This document shows positions 7,817-40,304 of a stretch of DNA of 40,304 bases, one piece after another. The notes under the pieces were generated by a model. It did no database searches. It was not told where the DNA came from and saw nothing but the letters and a program-made list of their open reading frames with translations. Position numbers and translations under genes: made by a program. Position 1 is the first letter of the stretch. Every line of letters starts with the position of its first letter. The DNA lies in assembly GCA_022703355.1 (NCBI GenBank), contig JAKLDU010000010.1, positions 1 to 40,304 of the forward strand. The letters are read 5' to 3'. Origin of the DNA: Deltaproteobacteria bacterium (GTDB lineage: Bacteria; Desulfobacterota; Desulfomonilia; UBA1062).

Positions 7817-9748
7817 TCAGATCTCGATCTGCGCGCCGATCTCCACCACCCGGTTGGGCTGTATCCCGAAGGAGGCCATGGGGGTCTGGGCGTTGCGGGA
7901 CATGAAGGCGAAGAACGCCTTGCGCCAGGCCGTCATGCGGGAGCTCCCGGAGGTGAGGAGCGTCTCGCGGCCCAGGAAGTAGGTCGTGACCTGCGGGTCG
8001 GTCACGAGGCCCTGGCGGGAAACGAGCTCCATGACCTTGGGCACGTTGGGCTGCTCCATGTACCCGAACCGGGCTACGAGGCGGTAGAACCCCTGGCCAA
8101 GGTCATCTATGGTCACCCTGCGCCCGTCGGGCACGACGGGGACGTCGAGGGTGGACAGGGTGAAGAGGACCACCTTCGCATGGAGGGTGTCGTTGTGCTT
8201 CAGGTGGTGGAGGAGCGCCGGGGGGGTCCCCTCGGGCGAGACCGTGAGGAAGACGGCCGCTCCGCGCACCCGGTGGACAGGGTGCAGCTTCAGGTCCTCG
8301 AGGAACAGGTCGATGGGGAAGCGGCTCTCCCGGAGCTTCTGCGCCAGCAGGGACCGGCCGTCCTTCCAGGTGGTCATGGCGATCATGACAAACGCCGCCA
8401 CGGCCAGCGGGAACCACCCGCCCTGGAAAAACTTCAGCAGGTTGGCCCCGAAGTAGGCGAGATCGAAGGAGAGGAACACGCCCACCAGGGGGATGACCTT
8501 CCACAGGGGCCAGTTCCATACCCTCATGAGCACGAAGCCGTAGATGATCGAGGTGAGCGTCATGGTGGCGGTCACGGCGATGCCGTAGGCGCCCGCGAGT
8601 CCGCTCGAGCTTCGAAATGCAAGGACCACCCCGATGCAGCACACCATCAGCGTGTGGTTCACCAGGGGGATGTAGATCTGCCCCCTGGTTTCCCGTGAGG
8701 TGTGGAAGACGCGCAGGCGCGGGCAGTACCCCATCTGGATCGCCTGCTGGGTGAGCGAGAAGGCCCCGGTGATGAGCGCCTGGGAGGCGATCACCGTGGC
8801 CGCGGTGGAGAGCGCCACCATGGGGTAGAGCAGGGCCCGGGGCACGAGGCCGTAGAAGGGGTTGAAGGCCTTGTCCGGATGGGCCAGGAGCAGGGCCCCC
8901 TGGCCGAGGTAGTTCAGGAGCAGCGCGGGGAACACGAAGGAGAACCACGACACCCGGATGGCCCCCCGCCCGAAATGGCCCAGGTCAGCGTAGAGCGCCT
9001 CGCACCCGGTGATGCAGAGCACCACCGACCCGAGGATGATGATCCCGTGGCGGCTGTGGACGGAAAAGAAGGTGAAGATATGGCCGGGGTTCAGGGCCAG
9101 GAAGATCTCCGGGTTCCGGAGGGACTCCACGAGCCCGAGCCCCGCGATGGTGAGAAACCACACGCACATGACCGGGCCGAAGACCCTCCCCACCCCGCGG
9201 GTCCCCCACCGCTGGACGAAGAACAGGGTCAGGAGGATGGCGCAGGTGAGGGGCACCACCAGGGGCGTCAGCGCCTTCGTGGCCACCTCGAGCCCCTCCA
9301 CCGCGGACAGGACCGAGATGGCGGGCGTGATGATGCCGTCGCCGTAGATGAGCGCCGCGCCGAAGATGGCGGCCGTGACCACGAAGGCGTACGCCCGGGA
9401 GGACCGGGTGCCGCTGCTCGAGCGAGCCAGGGCGAGGAGCGCGAACACGCCGCCCTCGCCCCGGTTGTCGGCCCGGAGCAGGAAGAGGACGTACTTGACG
9501 CACACCACGACCACCAGGGTCCAGAAGACGAGCGAGGTGACCCCGAACACGTTGACCTTTTCCACCGGGATGGCATGGATGCCGGAGAAGCATTCCTTGA
9601 CGGCATACAGGGGACTGGTGCCGATGTCCCCGAAGACGACCCCCAGGGCGCCGACGATCAGGGCGAGCTCTTTTTCGTGTGTGCCGGGCGACGGCTGGCC
9701 CGGCTCCGGACCGGACGGATCCGGGCCGGCGAAAGCGGAATCCTGCAT
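7817..9748 (-). CDS. kup: Kup-family low-affinity potassium uptake protein
   Basis: Potassium:proton symporter of the KUP/HAK/KT family in the cytoplasmic membrane, 643 aa (family usually about 620-660). The N-terminal signature GALGVVFGDIGTSPLYAVKE is present, followed by about 12 hydrophobic helices including IYGDGIITPAISVLSAVEGL. A cytoplasmic C-terminal domain ends in VEIGAQIEI. ATG 9748 has AAGGAGGG at good spacing. It stands alone, behind a c-di-AMP riboswitch and a sigma-70 promoter. Since c-di-AMP rises with potassium in known systems and this riboswitch class is an off switch, high potassium should shut the gene down (inference from the class). Confidence 0.96.
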   Translation of the reverse strand: MQDSAFAGPDPSGPEPGQPSPGTHEKELALIVGALGVVFGDIGTSPLYAVKECFSGIHAIPVEKVNVFGVTSLVFWTLVVVVCVKYVLFLLRADNRGEGGVFALLALARSSSGTRSSRAYAFVVTAAIFGAALIYGDGIITPAISVLSAVEGLEVATKALTPLVVPLTCAILLTLFFVQRWGTRGVGRVFGPVMCVWFLTIAGLGLVESLRNPEIFLALNPGHIFTFFSVHSRHGIIILGSVVLCITGCEALYADLGHFGRGAIRVSWFSFVFPALLLNYLGQGALLLAHPDKAFNPFYGLVPRALLYPMVALSTAATVIASQALITGAFSLTQQAIQMGYCPRLRVFHTSRETRGQIYIPLVNHTLMVCCIGVVLAFRSSSGLAGAYGIAVTATMTLTSIIYGFVLMRVWNWPLWKVIPLVGVFLSFDLAYFGANLLKFFQGGWFPLAVAAFVMIAMTTWKDGRSLLAQKLRESRFPIDLFLEDLKLHPVHRVRGAAVFLTVSPEGTPPALLHHLKHNDTLHAKVVLFTLSTLDVPVVPDGRRVTIDDLGQGFYRLVARFGYMEQPNVPKVMELVSRQGLVTDPQVTTYFLGRETLLTSGSSRMTAWRKAFFAFMSRNAQTPMASFGIQPNRVVEIGAQIEI

Positions 9749-9799
9749 GGAAAGACCCTCCTTACCTTTTCAGAGGCCAGGCCTCCGAAAGCCGGAAGG

Positions 9800-9930
9800 T
9801 CTCACCTCTTCGACGCCTACGAGGTTAGCTGACGGGCTCGGGCCGAAGAGATTGCCCTACGCTTTTTTATGCGATACGCCCCGTTTCCTGGGTCCCCCGC
9901 TCCCTGCCGTGCAGGGATTGAGCGATGTGA
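9800..9930 (-). ncRNA. ydaO/yuaA-class c-di-AMP riboswitch in the kup leader
   Basis: Reading the minus strand, the leader has the conserved blocks of the ydaO class in order: ATCGCTCAATCCC near the 5' end, GCGGGGGACCCAGG, then GGGCAATCTCTTCGGCCCGA, CCCGTCAGCTAACCTCGTA and GGCGTCGAAGAG. These match the B. subtilis ydaO leader blocks recalled from memory. The 3' part holds ACCTT and AAGGT segments that can pair around a GC-rich stem just before the AAGGAGGG ribosome site. Regulation could therefore act on ribosome access; no T-run terminator is seen. Confidence 0.88.
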
Positions 9931-9935
9931 AATTC

Positions 9936-35873: not shown

Positions 35874-37052
35874 TTATCCTCTCACGCCGTACAGGGTGAA
35901 GCCGTCGGTGTCGCCCTTTTCAGCCTTGGCCTTGCCTTCGAGGATGATGTTCCTGAAGTCGACCCGGGCCACGTCCCTGCCCGCCAGGCCGGCCACGTAG
36001 TTCACGATCTTCGGTGCGCCGGGGACGCCGTAGAGGGCCGATCTGAGCTCGGAGGCCACCGGGCCGCCGGGGCCGCCGAAGGAGATGGCGCGGTCGACCA
36101 CGATGAGGGTCTTCTTGCCGAGGGCCTCCCTGCGGAAGTCCTCGAAGGGGAACGGCCGCCAGAGCCTGAGCTTGATGACCCCGACCTTCTCGCCCTCGCC
36201 TCGCAGGGAGTCCACCACCTCCATGGCGGTCTCGCCGTAGGAGCCCATGGTCACGATGCAGTAGTCCGCGTCGTCGGTCCGGTAGGTCTCCACCGGCCTG
36301 TAGTACCTGCCGGTGAGGTCGCCCCACTCCTGCCACGCCTTGACGATGGTGCCGTAGGAGTTCACGACGCCCACCTGGCGGTGCATCTGGGCCTCGGTGT
36401 AGATCTCGGGCATGCCGAAGCAGCCCATGGAGACCGGGCTGTCCGGGTGGAGGGCGTTCTTCATCTTCACGTCCGGGAGATATTTCCTGATGGTTTCGTC
36501 GTCTTCATACTCGATGGGCTCGATCATGTGGGTGAGGATGAACCCGTCGAGGTTGATGGCCACGGGGAGCATCACCGCCGGGTCTTCGGCGATCCGGAAG
36601 GAGGTGAACACGTGGTCGTAGCTCTCCTGGCCGCTTTCCACGAAGACGTGGATCCAGCCCGCGTCCCGCACGCTCATGACGTCCGAGTGGTCGTTCCAGA
36701 TGGACAGCGGGCTCGACAGGGACCGGTTGGCCAGCGCCATCACGACGGGCAGCCGCATGGCGGCCGCGATGGTGAAGATCTCGGACATCAGCGCGAGGCC
36801 CTGGGAGCTCGTGGAGGTGAAGGTCCGGGCGCCCACGGCCGCCGATCCGCAGCACACGCTCATGGCGGAGTGCTCGCTCTCCACGGGCACGTATTCCGCA
36901 TCGAGATGGCCCTCGGCCACGATCTCCGAGAGGTGCTCCACAATGTGGGTCTGGGGGGTGATGGGGTAGGCCGCGATGACGTCCACATTGGCCTGGGCCA
37001 CCGCTTCGGACATCGCGATGGAAACTTCTATGCCTTTTCTCACTTTGGCCAT
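35874..37052 (-). CDS. porA: 2-Oxoacid:ferredoxin oxidoreductase alpha subunit (pyruvate type)
   Basis: 392 aa. It has the alpha-subunit substrate-binding block AAYPITPQTHIVEHLSEI near residue 30, EHSAMSVCCGSAAVGARTFTSTSSQGL, and NRSLSSPLSIWNDHSDVMSVRD, typical of PorA. Domain II follows with CIVTMGSYGETAMEVVDSLR. It pairs with porB for thiamine-dependent catalysis. The ATG at 37052 lies one base after the porD stop, with AGGAGGG inside porD as ribosome site. The order porC-porD-porA-porB matches four-subunit enzymes of anaerobes and archaea. Confidence 0.94.
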   Translation of the reverse strand: MAKVRKGIEVSIAMSEAVAQANVDVIAAYPITPQTHIVEHLSEIVAEGHLDAEYVPVESEHSAMSVCCGSAAVGARTFTSTSSQGLALMSEIFTIAAAMRLPVVMALANRSLSSPLSIWNDHSDVMSVRDAGWIHVFVESGQESYDHVFTSFRIAEDPAVMLPVAINLDGFILTHMIEPIEYEDDETIRKYLPDVKMKNALHPDSPVSMGCFGMPEIYTEAQMHRQVGVVNSYGTIVKAWQEWGDLTGRYYRPVETYRTDDADYCIVTMGSYGETAMEVVDSLRGEGEKVGVIKLRLWRPFPFEDFRREALGKKTLIVVDRAISFGGPGGPVASELRSALYGVPGAPKIVNYVAGLAGRDVARVDFRNIILEGKAKAEKGDTDGFTLYGVRG

Positions 37053-37053
37053 G

Positions 37054-37347
37054 TCATCCCTCCTCGCTCACCATCGTGATGCAGCCCACCGGGCACTCTT
37101 TCGCGCAGATGCCGCAGCCCTTGCAGTACACGAGGTCGGCCTCGAAGTGGCCGTCGGGCGCCTGCTTCACGCTCGAGTCCGGGCAGAACAGCCAGCACAC
37201 GCCGCACTTGATGCAGAGCCCGGCGTCCACCACCGGCCGCTCCGAGCGCCACGAGCCGGTCTCGTACTGCCGGGCGTTGCCGATCTCGGTGACCACGCTG
37301 CCGGTCTCGATTTCCTGCCATGTAATTTTTTCCATTGGTTTTGCCAT
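37054..37347 (-). CDS. porD: 2-Oxoacid:ferredoxin oxidoreductase delta (ferredoxin) subunit
   Basis: 97 aa with two [4Fe-4S] motifs, CIKCGVCWLFCPD and CKGCGICAKECP, carrying electrons away from the thiamine site. The N-terminal 40 residues (MEKITWQEIETGS and onward) match PorD proteins. The start with MAKPMEK is supported by GAGGAG at 9 nt; a shorter start at MEKITW is possible. It lies 17 bp after porC. Confidence 0.93.
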   Translation of the reverse strand: MAKPMEKITWQEIETGSVVTEIGNARQYETGSWRSERPVVDAGLCIKCGVCWLFCPDSSVKQAPDGHFEADLVYCKGCGICAKECPVGCITMVSEEG

Positions 37348-37364
37348 GGTGTCCCACTCCTCGC

Positions 37365-37913
37365 TTATACGATCGTGACCTCCTGGAACGCGCGTTCCAG
37401 GGCCTTGAGGTTTCTTGCGCCGAGCTTCGCCCCGAACCGGTCTAGGAGCGGCCCCTTGATGTCGTCGATGCCCAGCAGGCCCGTCGCCTTGACGAAGGCA
37501 CCCAGCATGGTGGTGTTCACGATGACCCGCCCGAGCTCCTCGTGGGCGATGGTGTTCGCGTCGACGGTGGCCACCCTGATGTTGCGGCCTGCAACATTCA
37601 CGACGTCGGAGGCCTTCTTCTTCGTGTTCAGGATGAGGACGCCGCCGTCGTGCATCCCCTCGGTGGGATCGAGCAGCTCCAGCAGCCCCGAGTCGAGCAC
37701 GATGACCACGTCGGGCCTGTAGACCTTCGCCCTGATGAGGATCTTCCTGTCGTCAACCCTGCAGAAAGCGACCACCGGGGCCCCCCTGCGCTCCGGGCCG
37801 AAGCTGGGGAACGCCTGGGCGAACTTGCCCTTGTTGATTGCGGCAATGGCAATGAGCTCTGCCGAGGTGACGGCACCCTGTCCGCCTCTCCCATGAAATC
37901 TGATCTCTTGCAT
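37365..37913 (-). CDS. porC: 2-Oxoacid:ferredoxin oxidoreductase gamma subunit
   Basis: 182 aa. It opens with the gamma-subunit signature EIRFHGRGGQGAVTSAELIA, followed by PSFGPERRGAPVVAFCRVDD. First gene of the operon, with AAGGAG 6 nt before the ATG at 37913 and a predicted promoter just upstream. The whole run 37913 to 31841 has gaps of 17 bp or less, so all seven genes should be made from one transcript. Confidence 0.94.
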   Translation of the reverse strand: MQEIRFHGRGGQGAVTSAELIAIAAINKGKFAQAFPSFGPERRGAPVVAFCRVDDRKILIRAKVYRPDVVIVLDSGLLELLDPTEGMHDGGVLILNTKKKASDVVNVAGRNIRVATVDANTIAHEELGRVIVNTTMLGAFVKATGLLGIDDIKGPLLDRFGAKLGARNLKALERAFQEVTIV

Positions 37914-38721: not shown

Positions 38722-39636
38722 TCAGCTCCGGGCGCCGCCGTCGATGCTGGTGCGCTTGGCCAGGATGAAATCGTGAAACTTCTCCATGAGGGGCAGGAAC
38801 TTGCGCTTCCTGTTGTGGATGACGTAGAAGTCCCTCTTGGTGTTCAGGTCCCTGATGTCGAGCGCCGCCAGGCTGCCGTTCTTCACCTCGTTCCTGATGA
38901 CGTTCCGGGAGAGGACCGCCACCCCGAGGTTCGCCTCCACCGCCCGCTTGATGCCTTCCGAGGAGCTCATCTCCATGGTGACCCTGCGCTCGATGCCATA
39001 GCGCTTGAGCACGTACTCGATGAGCCCCCGGGTCCCGGAGCCTTCTTCCCGCAGAATGATGGACTCGGGCTCGGAGGTGAGCATCTTCATGGTGAGGTGG
39101 TCCCTCCTGGCCCAGCGGTGCTTGGGCGAGCACACGATCACCAGCTCGTCCTTCATGAAGAACTCGGCCTGGAGGTCCGGGTGCTTGGGCGGGTCCTGGA
39201 GAAAGGCGAAGTCGAGCTCGCCGGAGATGCACTGCTCCAGTGCTTCCTGCCGGTTGAGGATGGTGAGCGAGATCTCCGCCTTGGGGAACATCTCCTTGAA
39301 CTCGCCCAGGAATCCGGGCAGCACATAGATGCCCACCGTGTTCGAGGTGCCGAGGATGAGCTTGCCCACGTCGCCGGAGGAGAACTGGTTCATCACCGCG
39401 TTGATCTCCTCGATGAGGTTCAGGAGCTTCTCCGAGTAGGAATAGAACACCCTGCCCGCGTCGGTGAGCGAGATCTTCCTGTTGATCCGCTCGAAGAGCT
39501 TCACGTTCAGGGAGTCTTCCAAATCCTTGATCTGGATGCTCACCGAAGGCTGGGACAGGCGCATTTTTTTCGCCGTCTTCGTGATGCTCAACGTCTTTGC
39601 GGCGATGTTGAATATATTGACCTGGTGAATGTTCAT
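38722..39636 (-). CDS. LysR-type transcriptional regulator
   Basis: 304 aa. An N-terminal winged helix-turn-helix (MNIHQVNIFNIAAKTLSITKTAKKMRLSQPSVSIQIKDLED split: HQVNIFNIAA and LSQPSVSIQ) and a periplasmic-binding-like effector domain (LILGTSNTVGIYVLPGFL, FAFLQDPPKHPDL) identify the family; by eye it is closest to the CysB/CbbR-like subgroup. The start is set at 39636 because LysR proteins begin at this motif; an in-frame ATG at 39663 (with AAGG upstream) would add 9 residues. A T-N11-A dyad lies just upstream, over the promoter of a divergent transcript. The effector and targets are unknown. Confidence 0.92.
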   Translation of the reverse strand: MNIHQVNIFNIAAKTLSITKTAKKMRLSQPSVSIQIKDLEDSLNVKLFERINRKISLTDAGRVFYSYSEKLLNLIEEINAVMNQFSSGDVGKLILGTSNTVGIYVLPGFLGEFKEMFPKAEISLTILNRQEALEQCISGELDFAFLQDPPKHPDLQAEFFMKDELVIVCSPKHRWARRDHLTMKMLTSEPESIILREEGSGTRGLIEYVLKRYGIERRVTMEMSSSEGIKRAVEANLGVAVLSRNVIRNEVKNGSLAALDIRDLNTKRDFYVIHNRKRKFLPLMEKFHDFILAKRTSIDGGARS

Positions 39637-39682
39637 TTCAACCCCGGCAAGATTTACTTTCATTTAACCTTACCATAAGATC

Positions 39683-39719
39683 TTTATATTTGACATAAAT
39701 AAATAACAGCTTATATACA
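39683..39719 (+). promoter_or_regulatory. LysR-type dyad overlapping a strong plus-strand promoter
   Basis: TTTAT-N7-ATAAA (39683-39699) is a perfect dyad that includes the T-N11-A form bound by LysR proteins. It is centred on -35 TTGACA (39690-39695); the -10 is TATACA (39714-39719) with an 18-nt spacer. The divergent LysR gene begins only 20-47 bp away, the classic layout for a LysR regulator and its target. Confidence 0.65.
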
Positions 39720-39725
39720 AATGCC

Positions 39726-39809
39726 AGCCTATAGCGATTCTTTCAAGGGCTATAGACCTCCTTTTTGGGCCCACTACCACCTCTTGATTGAGTGGGCCTT
39801 CTTTTTTTG
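39726..39809 (+). ncRNA. Candidate small RNA divergent from lysR
   Basis: From a predicted start near 39726, a transcript of about 84 nt would contain hairpin 1 (CTATAGC 39729-39735 with GCTATAG 39749-39755), an 11-nt single-stranded linker ACCTCCTTTTT (39756-39766) and a terminator hairpin. It holds no open frame. The linker is complementary to AAAAAGGAGGT, a full Shine-Dalgarno sequence. The terminator loop holds a second CACCTC. It could instead be an attenuated leader of the downstream Smr gene, whose start is 14 bp further on. Confidence 0.5.
39768..39809 (+). terminator. Intrinsic terminator before the Smr-domain gene
   Basis: GGCCCACT (39768-39775) pairs with AGTGGGCC (39791-39798) around a 15-nt loop, followed by a T-run (39799-39808). 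It is on the plus strand and lies between two divergent genes, so a transcript must start just upstream of it. Confidence 0.85.
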
Positions 39810-39822
39810 CTAAACTGGGGAC

Positions 39823-40304
39823 ATGTCAAGAAAGGACGAACCCTTCCACGGCCCGTTCAGAAAACTCAAAGGGGTGAGAATCAAGCCGAAGGCCGGGCCT
39901 CTGCCGCAGAAGCCCCCCGAGCCCCCGAAGGCCGACGACGGGGAGGTCTTCGCACAGGCCATGAAGGGGGTCGTGCCCATGAGCAGCGACCGCGTCACGC
40001 CGGAACCCCTCGACCCCGGGTCGGTGGTGGCGTCCATCCGGGAGAACGTCAGGAGGCACGAGCGGGAGACCCTCGAGATCCTCAAGGGGCTCGTGCGGGG
40101 CACCTCGCTTTTCGACATCACGACCACGGGCGAGTACCTCGAGGGCCACGCCGTCCCCGTGGACCCGGCGGTCATGAAGAAGCTCAAGGCCGGGGAGCTC
40201 ACGGTCGAGTCGCACCTCGACCTCCACGGCCACACCAAGCTCACGGCGGAGCAGGCCCTCCAGAACTTTATCCTGAACGCCCACGCCCTGGGCCAGAGGA
40301 CCGT
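39823..40304 (+). CDS. Smr-domain protein (3' end outside window)
   Basis: The frame is open from ATG 39823 to the window edge (160 residues visible). The N-terminal 100 residues are basic and Pro/Lys-rich (RKLKGVRIKPKAGPLPQKP) with no recognised fold. The C-terminal visible part begins an Smr/MutS2 C-terminal domain: LDLHGHTKLTAEQALQNFI and HALGQRTV, the conserved LDLHG motif and helix. Smr domains bind or cut nucleic acids; the remaining Smr catalytic part lies beyond 40304. The gene is preceded at 14 bp by an intrinsic terminator. A ribosome site is weak (TGGGG, 3-4 nt away). Confidence 0.8.
   Translation, partial: MSRKDEPFHGPFRKLKGVRIKPKAGPLPQKPPEPPKADDGEVFAQAMKGVVPMSSDRVTPEPLDPGSVVASIRENVRRHERETLEILKGLVRGTSLFDITTTGEYLEGHAVPVDPAVMKKLKAGELTVESHLDLHGHTKLTAEQALQNFILNAHALGQRT

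Follow-up and report, generated by a model that had tools for sequence, protein, structure and literature searches.

A conserved candidate anti-Shine-Dalgarno small RNA between lysR and smr in a family of uncultured Thermodesulfobacteriota

There are several precedents for a small RNA (sRNA) gene transcribed divergently from the gene of a LysR-type regulator, as in the locus described here. The OxyR-OxyS and GcvA-GcvB pairs share this arrangement, although OxyS and GcvB are unrelated sRNAs of enterobacteria that use other seeds. In alphaproteobacteria, the LysR-type protein LsrB/VtlR activates sRNAs of the AbcR1/2 and NfeR1 types, which repress translation via anti-Shine-Dalgarno (anti-SD) seeds, one of them placed between two stem-loops (PMC3712013, PMC10746234, PMC8844928, PMC7486931). 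Here, we examine a locus of this general design at the end of the window, by which we mean the whole 40,304-nt stretch of DNA that was analyzed. We consider it probable, judging from its sequence and that of its relatives, that it encodes a trans-acting anti-SD sRNA, likely activated by the adjacent LysR protein and ended by its own terminator, which would block the translation start of chosen mRNAs and whose terminator would double as the -35 region of the promoter of the downstream Smr-domain gene (smr).

A predicted RNA gene between lysR and smr

All the elements listed in the initial annotation, namely the dyad, the promoter, two hairpins, the linker between them, the terminator with its T-run and the CACCTC in its loop, are present in the gap between lysR and smr (Table 1). 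A consensus promoter scan had omitted the promoter of the RNA because its -10 does not end in T. For lysR we use the start at MNIHQ; a longer reading frame begins with an ATG at 39663, which was set aside as the orthologs start at MNIHQ. Elsewhere in the window, a c-di-AMP riboswitch (RF00379, 94 bits; 9748-9934, minus strand) immediately precedes a gene (start at 9748) for a Kup-like potassium transporter, a pairing of a known type.

Table 1. Features of the lysR-smr region (window coordinates)
Feature	Position	Strand	Details
lysR, LysR-type regulator	38722..39636	-	PF00126 E 1.6e-18; PF03466 E 7.6e-49
Conserved block ATTTACTTTnnTTTAAnnnTAnCATAAG between the divergent starts	39650..39679		possible LysR recruitment site and/or lysR promoter
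T-N11-A dyad TTTATATTTGACATAAA over the -35	39683..39699		TTTAT-ATTTGAC-ATAAA, T39685-N11-A39697 (sequence reading); possible LysR activation site
RNA promoter	39690..39717	+	-35 TTGACA 39690-39695 (perfect); -10 TATATA ~39712-39717
Small RNA gene (predicted)	39726..39809	+	~84 nt, ATG absent inside; covariance model R1, conservation
Hairpin 1	39729..39755	+	CTATAGC 39729-39735 / GCTATAG 39749-39755; loop variable
Single-stranded anti-SD linker ACCTCCTTTTT	39756..39766	+	ACCTCC invariant, 24/24 copies
Intrinsic terminator	39767..39808	+	GC-rich stem 39767-39775/39791-39799; T-run 39802-39808
CACCTC in terminator loop	39778-39783	+	sequence
smr promoter	39788..39816	+	-35 TTGAGT 39788-39793 in terminator; 17-bp spacer; TGC-TAAACT, -10 39811-39816
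Smr-domain gene, SmrA/YdaL-like	39823..40304	+	cut by window end; ATG 6 nt after -10

The predicted fold of the 84-nt RNA (-23.8 kcal/mol, z -2.3; equally good folds in 3 of 200 shuffles) leaves ACCUCCUUUUU unpaired between the two hairpins. Within it, ACCUCCUU is unpaired with a probability of 0.97 in the window copy and of ~0.95-1.0 in most relatives (predicted ensembles), and this exposed 8-mer is what we take, from general knowledge of the 16S tail, to be the anti-SD end of 16S rRNA itself. Neither the dyad nor the ACCTCC string is remarkable by itself: a perfect 5+7+5 dyad turns up in 17% of shuffled gaps and ACCTCC in 2% of shuffled RNAs, so that comparison with relatives had to decide. 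As the sequences stand, it is conservation and not single-sequence statistics that lifts the locus far above chance.

Conservation and copies elsewhere

In BLAST searches against 60 relatives the gap was matched throughout the window's family, and the covariance model R1 found the RNA in 21 of the 24 family genomes, the named records among them being metagenome-assembled genomes of uncultured Thermodesulfobacteriota/Deltaproteobacteria; in GTDB the group corresponds to the order UBA1062 within Desulfomonilia. The same model gave zero matches outside the family among the 395 genomes sampled from the phylum, the wider model R2 gave zero in the 18 remaining genomes of the class, and none was found in the viral contigs searched. 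A match in Bacillota (L064) was rejected as chance: it lacks hairpin 1 and the terminator pairing, and about one chance match is expected for the pattern. A further weak match in G003 (L056:1501-1586; E 0.003 with R1 and 0.04 with R2), which combines AACCTCCTCTTTAGG with a terminator, is possibly a diverged relative.

The RNA is 74-94% identical to the window copy, as against 21-63% at the fourfold-degenerate sites of the adjacent lysR, and its anatomy is thus under strong selection. Across the alignment of 21 loci, most of GGCCCACTACCACCTC...TTGAGTGGGCC is invariant or nearly so, whereas substitutions accumulate in the hairpin 1 loop and in the flanks. Upstream, ATTTGACA is present in 20 of the 21 orthologs, with ACTTGACA instead in L019, and a TATAAGG-like -10 is seen in most of them. 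With the three copies that lie apart from lysR and smr counted in, GCUAUAGACCUCC is invariant in 24/24 copies, as is GCTATAGACCTCC across the 21 orthologs and the 3 paralogs; an accessible anti-SD seed, ACCUCC, is conserved in all 24 copies and mostly unpaired. Two parts of the RNA are less constant. The 5′ arm of hairpin 1 has been lost in L015 and L019, with the 3′ arm GCTATAG still invariant, and the CACCTC of the terminator loop is missing from four orthologs (L019-L022) and two paralogs (L044, L045), which means that this loop string is not essential.

Extra copies occur in G012 (two) and G015 (one), none of them adjoining lysR or smr. These paralogs retain GCTATAGACCTCC while their terminator stems change in paired fashion: GGCCCAC/GTGGGCC gives way to AGCCCAC/GTGGGCT, with a GCCCGC/GCGGGT version in L045, such that the stem is compensated in both L044 and L045. 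Counting pairs with the paralogs included, two stem positions have changed on both sides, as against 0.1 expected from shuffling. Among the orthologs there is no covariation, as the terminator stem never varies there, and the case for RNA structure thus rests on the paralogs and on folding. The expectation in the initial annotation that relatives would keep the linker and compensate their stems while the flanks drift was therefore borne out for linker and flanks, and for the stems in the paralogs but not among the orthologs. Copies away from both neighbors, with differing but still pairing terminators, point to a stand-alone RNA and not just a leader, and the conservation of its own promoter (-35/-10) and intrinsic terminator is what a separate RNA gene would display. 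Together, conservation and the copies elsewhere strongly support the original proposal that a separate RNA, which exposes an anti-SD linker, is encoded beside a LysR gene.

Links to smr and lysR

The terminator contains a second conserved signal. TTGAGT is invariant in 21/21 smr-linked copies, at a spacing of 16-18 from a -10-like TGnTAnnnT that directly follows the T-run in nearly all loci, and it is absent in 3/3 paralogs without smr; the match to the smr -10 beats all 2000 shuffles. The -35 region of the smr promoter hence seems to lie within the RNA terminator, an unusual and newly recognized overlap, which would explain why the RNA and smr have stayed together. The smr ATG lies 6-8 nt past the -10 in most of the 21 loci (it is displaced in G010) and no SD is visible before smr, a layout from which we infer that the smr mRNA is probably leaderless. 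The complete Smr protein of a relative matches PF01713 (E 2.8e-19) and YdaL (PDB 3qd7, E 4e-11) and scores below the cut-offs for SmrA, SmrB and MutS2, for which reason we call it only Smr-domain, SmrA-like. Escherichia coli SmrB is described in PMC10897456 as cutting mRNA at collided ribosomes.

Because smr lies downstream of the RNA in every main locus examined, usually within 20 nt and even where lysR is gone (in G010 it is present but displaced by ~160 nt), we had to consider that the RNA is merely its leader, with both read from the same promoter and the terminator stopping transcription unless a signal allows read-through, as in attenuation. A cis-acting leader of this kind would always be followed by smr and be co-transcribed with it, whereas smr is missing beside the extra copies in G012 and G015 and appears to have a separate, conserved promoter after the terminator, with the SD absent, an arrangement that also accounts for the tight linkage. 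Moreover, an alternative antiterminator fold is not seen in the predicted ensembles, and we regard a leader as improbable. The overlap itself suggests another possibility, in which transcription driven by LysR runs into the terminator and thereby occludes the smr promoter, and the RNA is a by-product of such transcriptional interference. The RNA terminator does overlap the smr -35 in 21/21 copies; however, interference would select for neither an invariant GCUAUAGACCUCC nor a CCUCC linker, and would not keep both in paralogs that lack smr. While it is thus an unlikely substitute for a functional RNA, interference could act in addition to it.

The LysR protein is CbbR/YeiE-like and closest to the model of the selenium-metabolism LysR, NF040786, to which it is related without being a member (235.1 bits, cut-off 250). 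Its close orthologs adjoin the RNA in genomes that have both. Three genomes (G005, G017, G023), two of them >90% complete, lack both the RNA and this lysR, and three others (G011, G014, G022) keep the RNA without lysR. The block that precedes the RNA promoter is conserved at lysR-bearing loci and degraded at the lysR-less loci L014 and L019 and, in part, L017 (in G011 and G014, and only partly in G022). Shared presence and loss, the divergent arrangement and the degradation of the block where lysR has gone make control of the RNA by LysR likely, if on indirect evidence, although the block might be nothing more than the promoter of lysR. Across 18 loci the T-N11-A dyad is poorly conserved, with 62% of its arm positions kept as against 55% in shuffles (p ~0.03); it is also common in shuffled gaps and is not significant alone.

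Three observations concern the wider neighborhood. Genes resembling those of 2-oxoacid:ferredoxin oxidoreductases adjoin lysR in the window (35874-37913, minus strand). In the lysR-less G014 and G022, the immediate neighbor of the RNA is the gamma-subunit-like gene of this group. A second lysR, 85% identical to that of the window, occurs at L100 (G006:C80), where the upstream sequence is replaced within ~50 nt and the RNA is absent.

Candidate mode of action and comparison with known systems

In the reading that we favor, the sRNA would be transcribed divergently from lysR, its promoter probably switched on by the LysR-type protein, and would end at its own terminator with ACCUCCUUUUU kept open between the two hairpins. 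As the linker corresponds to the anti-SD part of the 16S tail, the RNA could pair with strong SD sites, and the pairing would probably reach into the melted 3′ arm GCUAUAG, whose invariance despite the loss of the 5′ arm (L015, L019) suggests that it takes part in the pairing. For the duplex between the linker region and AAGGAGGU, -11.7 kcal/mol is predicted. Such pairing would block the translation start of chosen mRNAs, and repression of strong-SD mRNAs by the RNA fits both its anatomy and its known analogues. The smr promoter, in turn, would use the -35 inside the terminator, and an smr mRNA starting at its ATG would offer the RNA no SD.

Scans of relatives for targets returned candidate sites only and no secure conserved target, and when the full 17-nt seed was searched with at most two mismatches allowed, its sites were in no excess over a reversed-pattern control. 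The best shared candidate, from the scan with AAGGAGGTCT-ATG, was a recurrent LysM gene with the ribosome-binding site AAGGAGGTCTATTGATG. We do not claim it as a target, since its site is at the same time coding sequence for the end of the gene before it (LKEVY/F-stop), is variable (GTT) in several genomes and has a close counterpart in the RNA-less G005 and G023. The upstream gene, which is penicillin-binding-protein-like, overlaps the LysM gene at L166-L172 and L195-L214, such that its stop region encodes the SD of the latter. The linker scan (AAAAAGGAGGT-ATG) gave 16 sites in 6 genomes, and an ACT-domain gene emerged from both scans. This gene (L163, L178, L184, L233) is a candidate target: in two genera its strong SD (AAGGAGGTCTATAATATG, AAAAAGGAGGTTAAGCCAATG and the like) is complementary to the RNA.

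The outcome of these scans also bears on whether the conserved GCUAUAGACCUCCUU might be a protein-binding site or a sponge for another RNA, and not an anti-SD seed for mRNAs. That no conserved mRNA target was found would agree with this, as would the invariance of the 3′ arm GCUAUAG even in L015 and L019, which have lost the 5′ arm, a degree of constancy beyond what a linker pairing with SDs needs. Nevertheless, we hold it to be doubtful, given that the exposed ACCUCCUU presumably is the 16S anti-SD itself and that AbcR1/2 repress mRNAs through comparable linker seeds. Least probable of all is the notion that, upon a LysR signal, the RNA acts as a soluble copy of the 16S anti-SD tail and moves the cell away from SD-led and toward leaderless translation; the leaderless smr, which is promoted from within the RNA terminator and whose family includes SmrB, would then be the built-in beneficiary of this change.

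An anti-SD sRNA working like AbcR1/NfeR1 is the most likely interpretation. AbcR1/AbcR2 (alpha-r15), with LsrB/VtlR, likewise have their genes in the gap beside a LysR-type gene, the product of which activates at least one of the sRNAs, as we infer for the window RNA; they also have anti-SD motifs, one of them between two stem-loops, and sibling copies. They differ from it in being 114-121 nt long with three hairpins and the anti-SD motifs CUCCUCCC and UUCCCCUC, and in occurring in alphaproteobacteria as tandem copies with smr absent. NfeR1 (alpha-r14), which is LsrB-activated, shows a comparable regime of identical anti-SD motifs on stems that are free to differ; unlike the window RNA, it has three hairpins, each with CCUCCUCCC, and does not lie beside a conserved LysR-smr pair. 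In Rfam, zero families reach their cut-offs at the RNA or in the relatives tested, and neither AbcR nor NfeR is among the matches listed, even to E 10. The best weak matches, ncr982 of Bacillus (22.3, cut-off 50; E 0.47) and the toxic sRNA RF02278 of Burkholderia (13.6, cut-off 50; E 3), share with it a CCUCC-type stretch before an intrinsic terminator. In the absence of sequence membership in any of these families, we view it as a new RNA family of an already known kind, which would add a conserved and previously unannotated sRNA to a deep uncultured group of Thermodesulfobacteriota for which little is known about such RNAs. Having a terminator serve also as the -35 of the promoter for a leaderless neighbor would be a compact and easily testable design, and the natural losses of lysR, a stem arm or a neighbor among the relatives offer ready-made experiments. 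Finally, the likeness to the alphaproteobacterial LsrB-AbcR/NfeR1 design suggests that the control of anti-SD RNAs by LysR-type proteins arose more than once.
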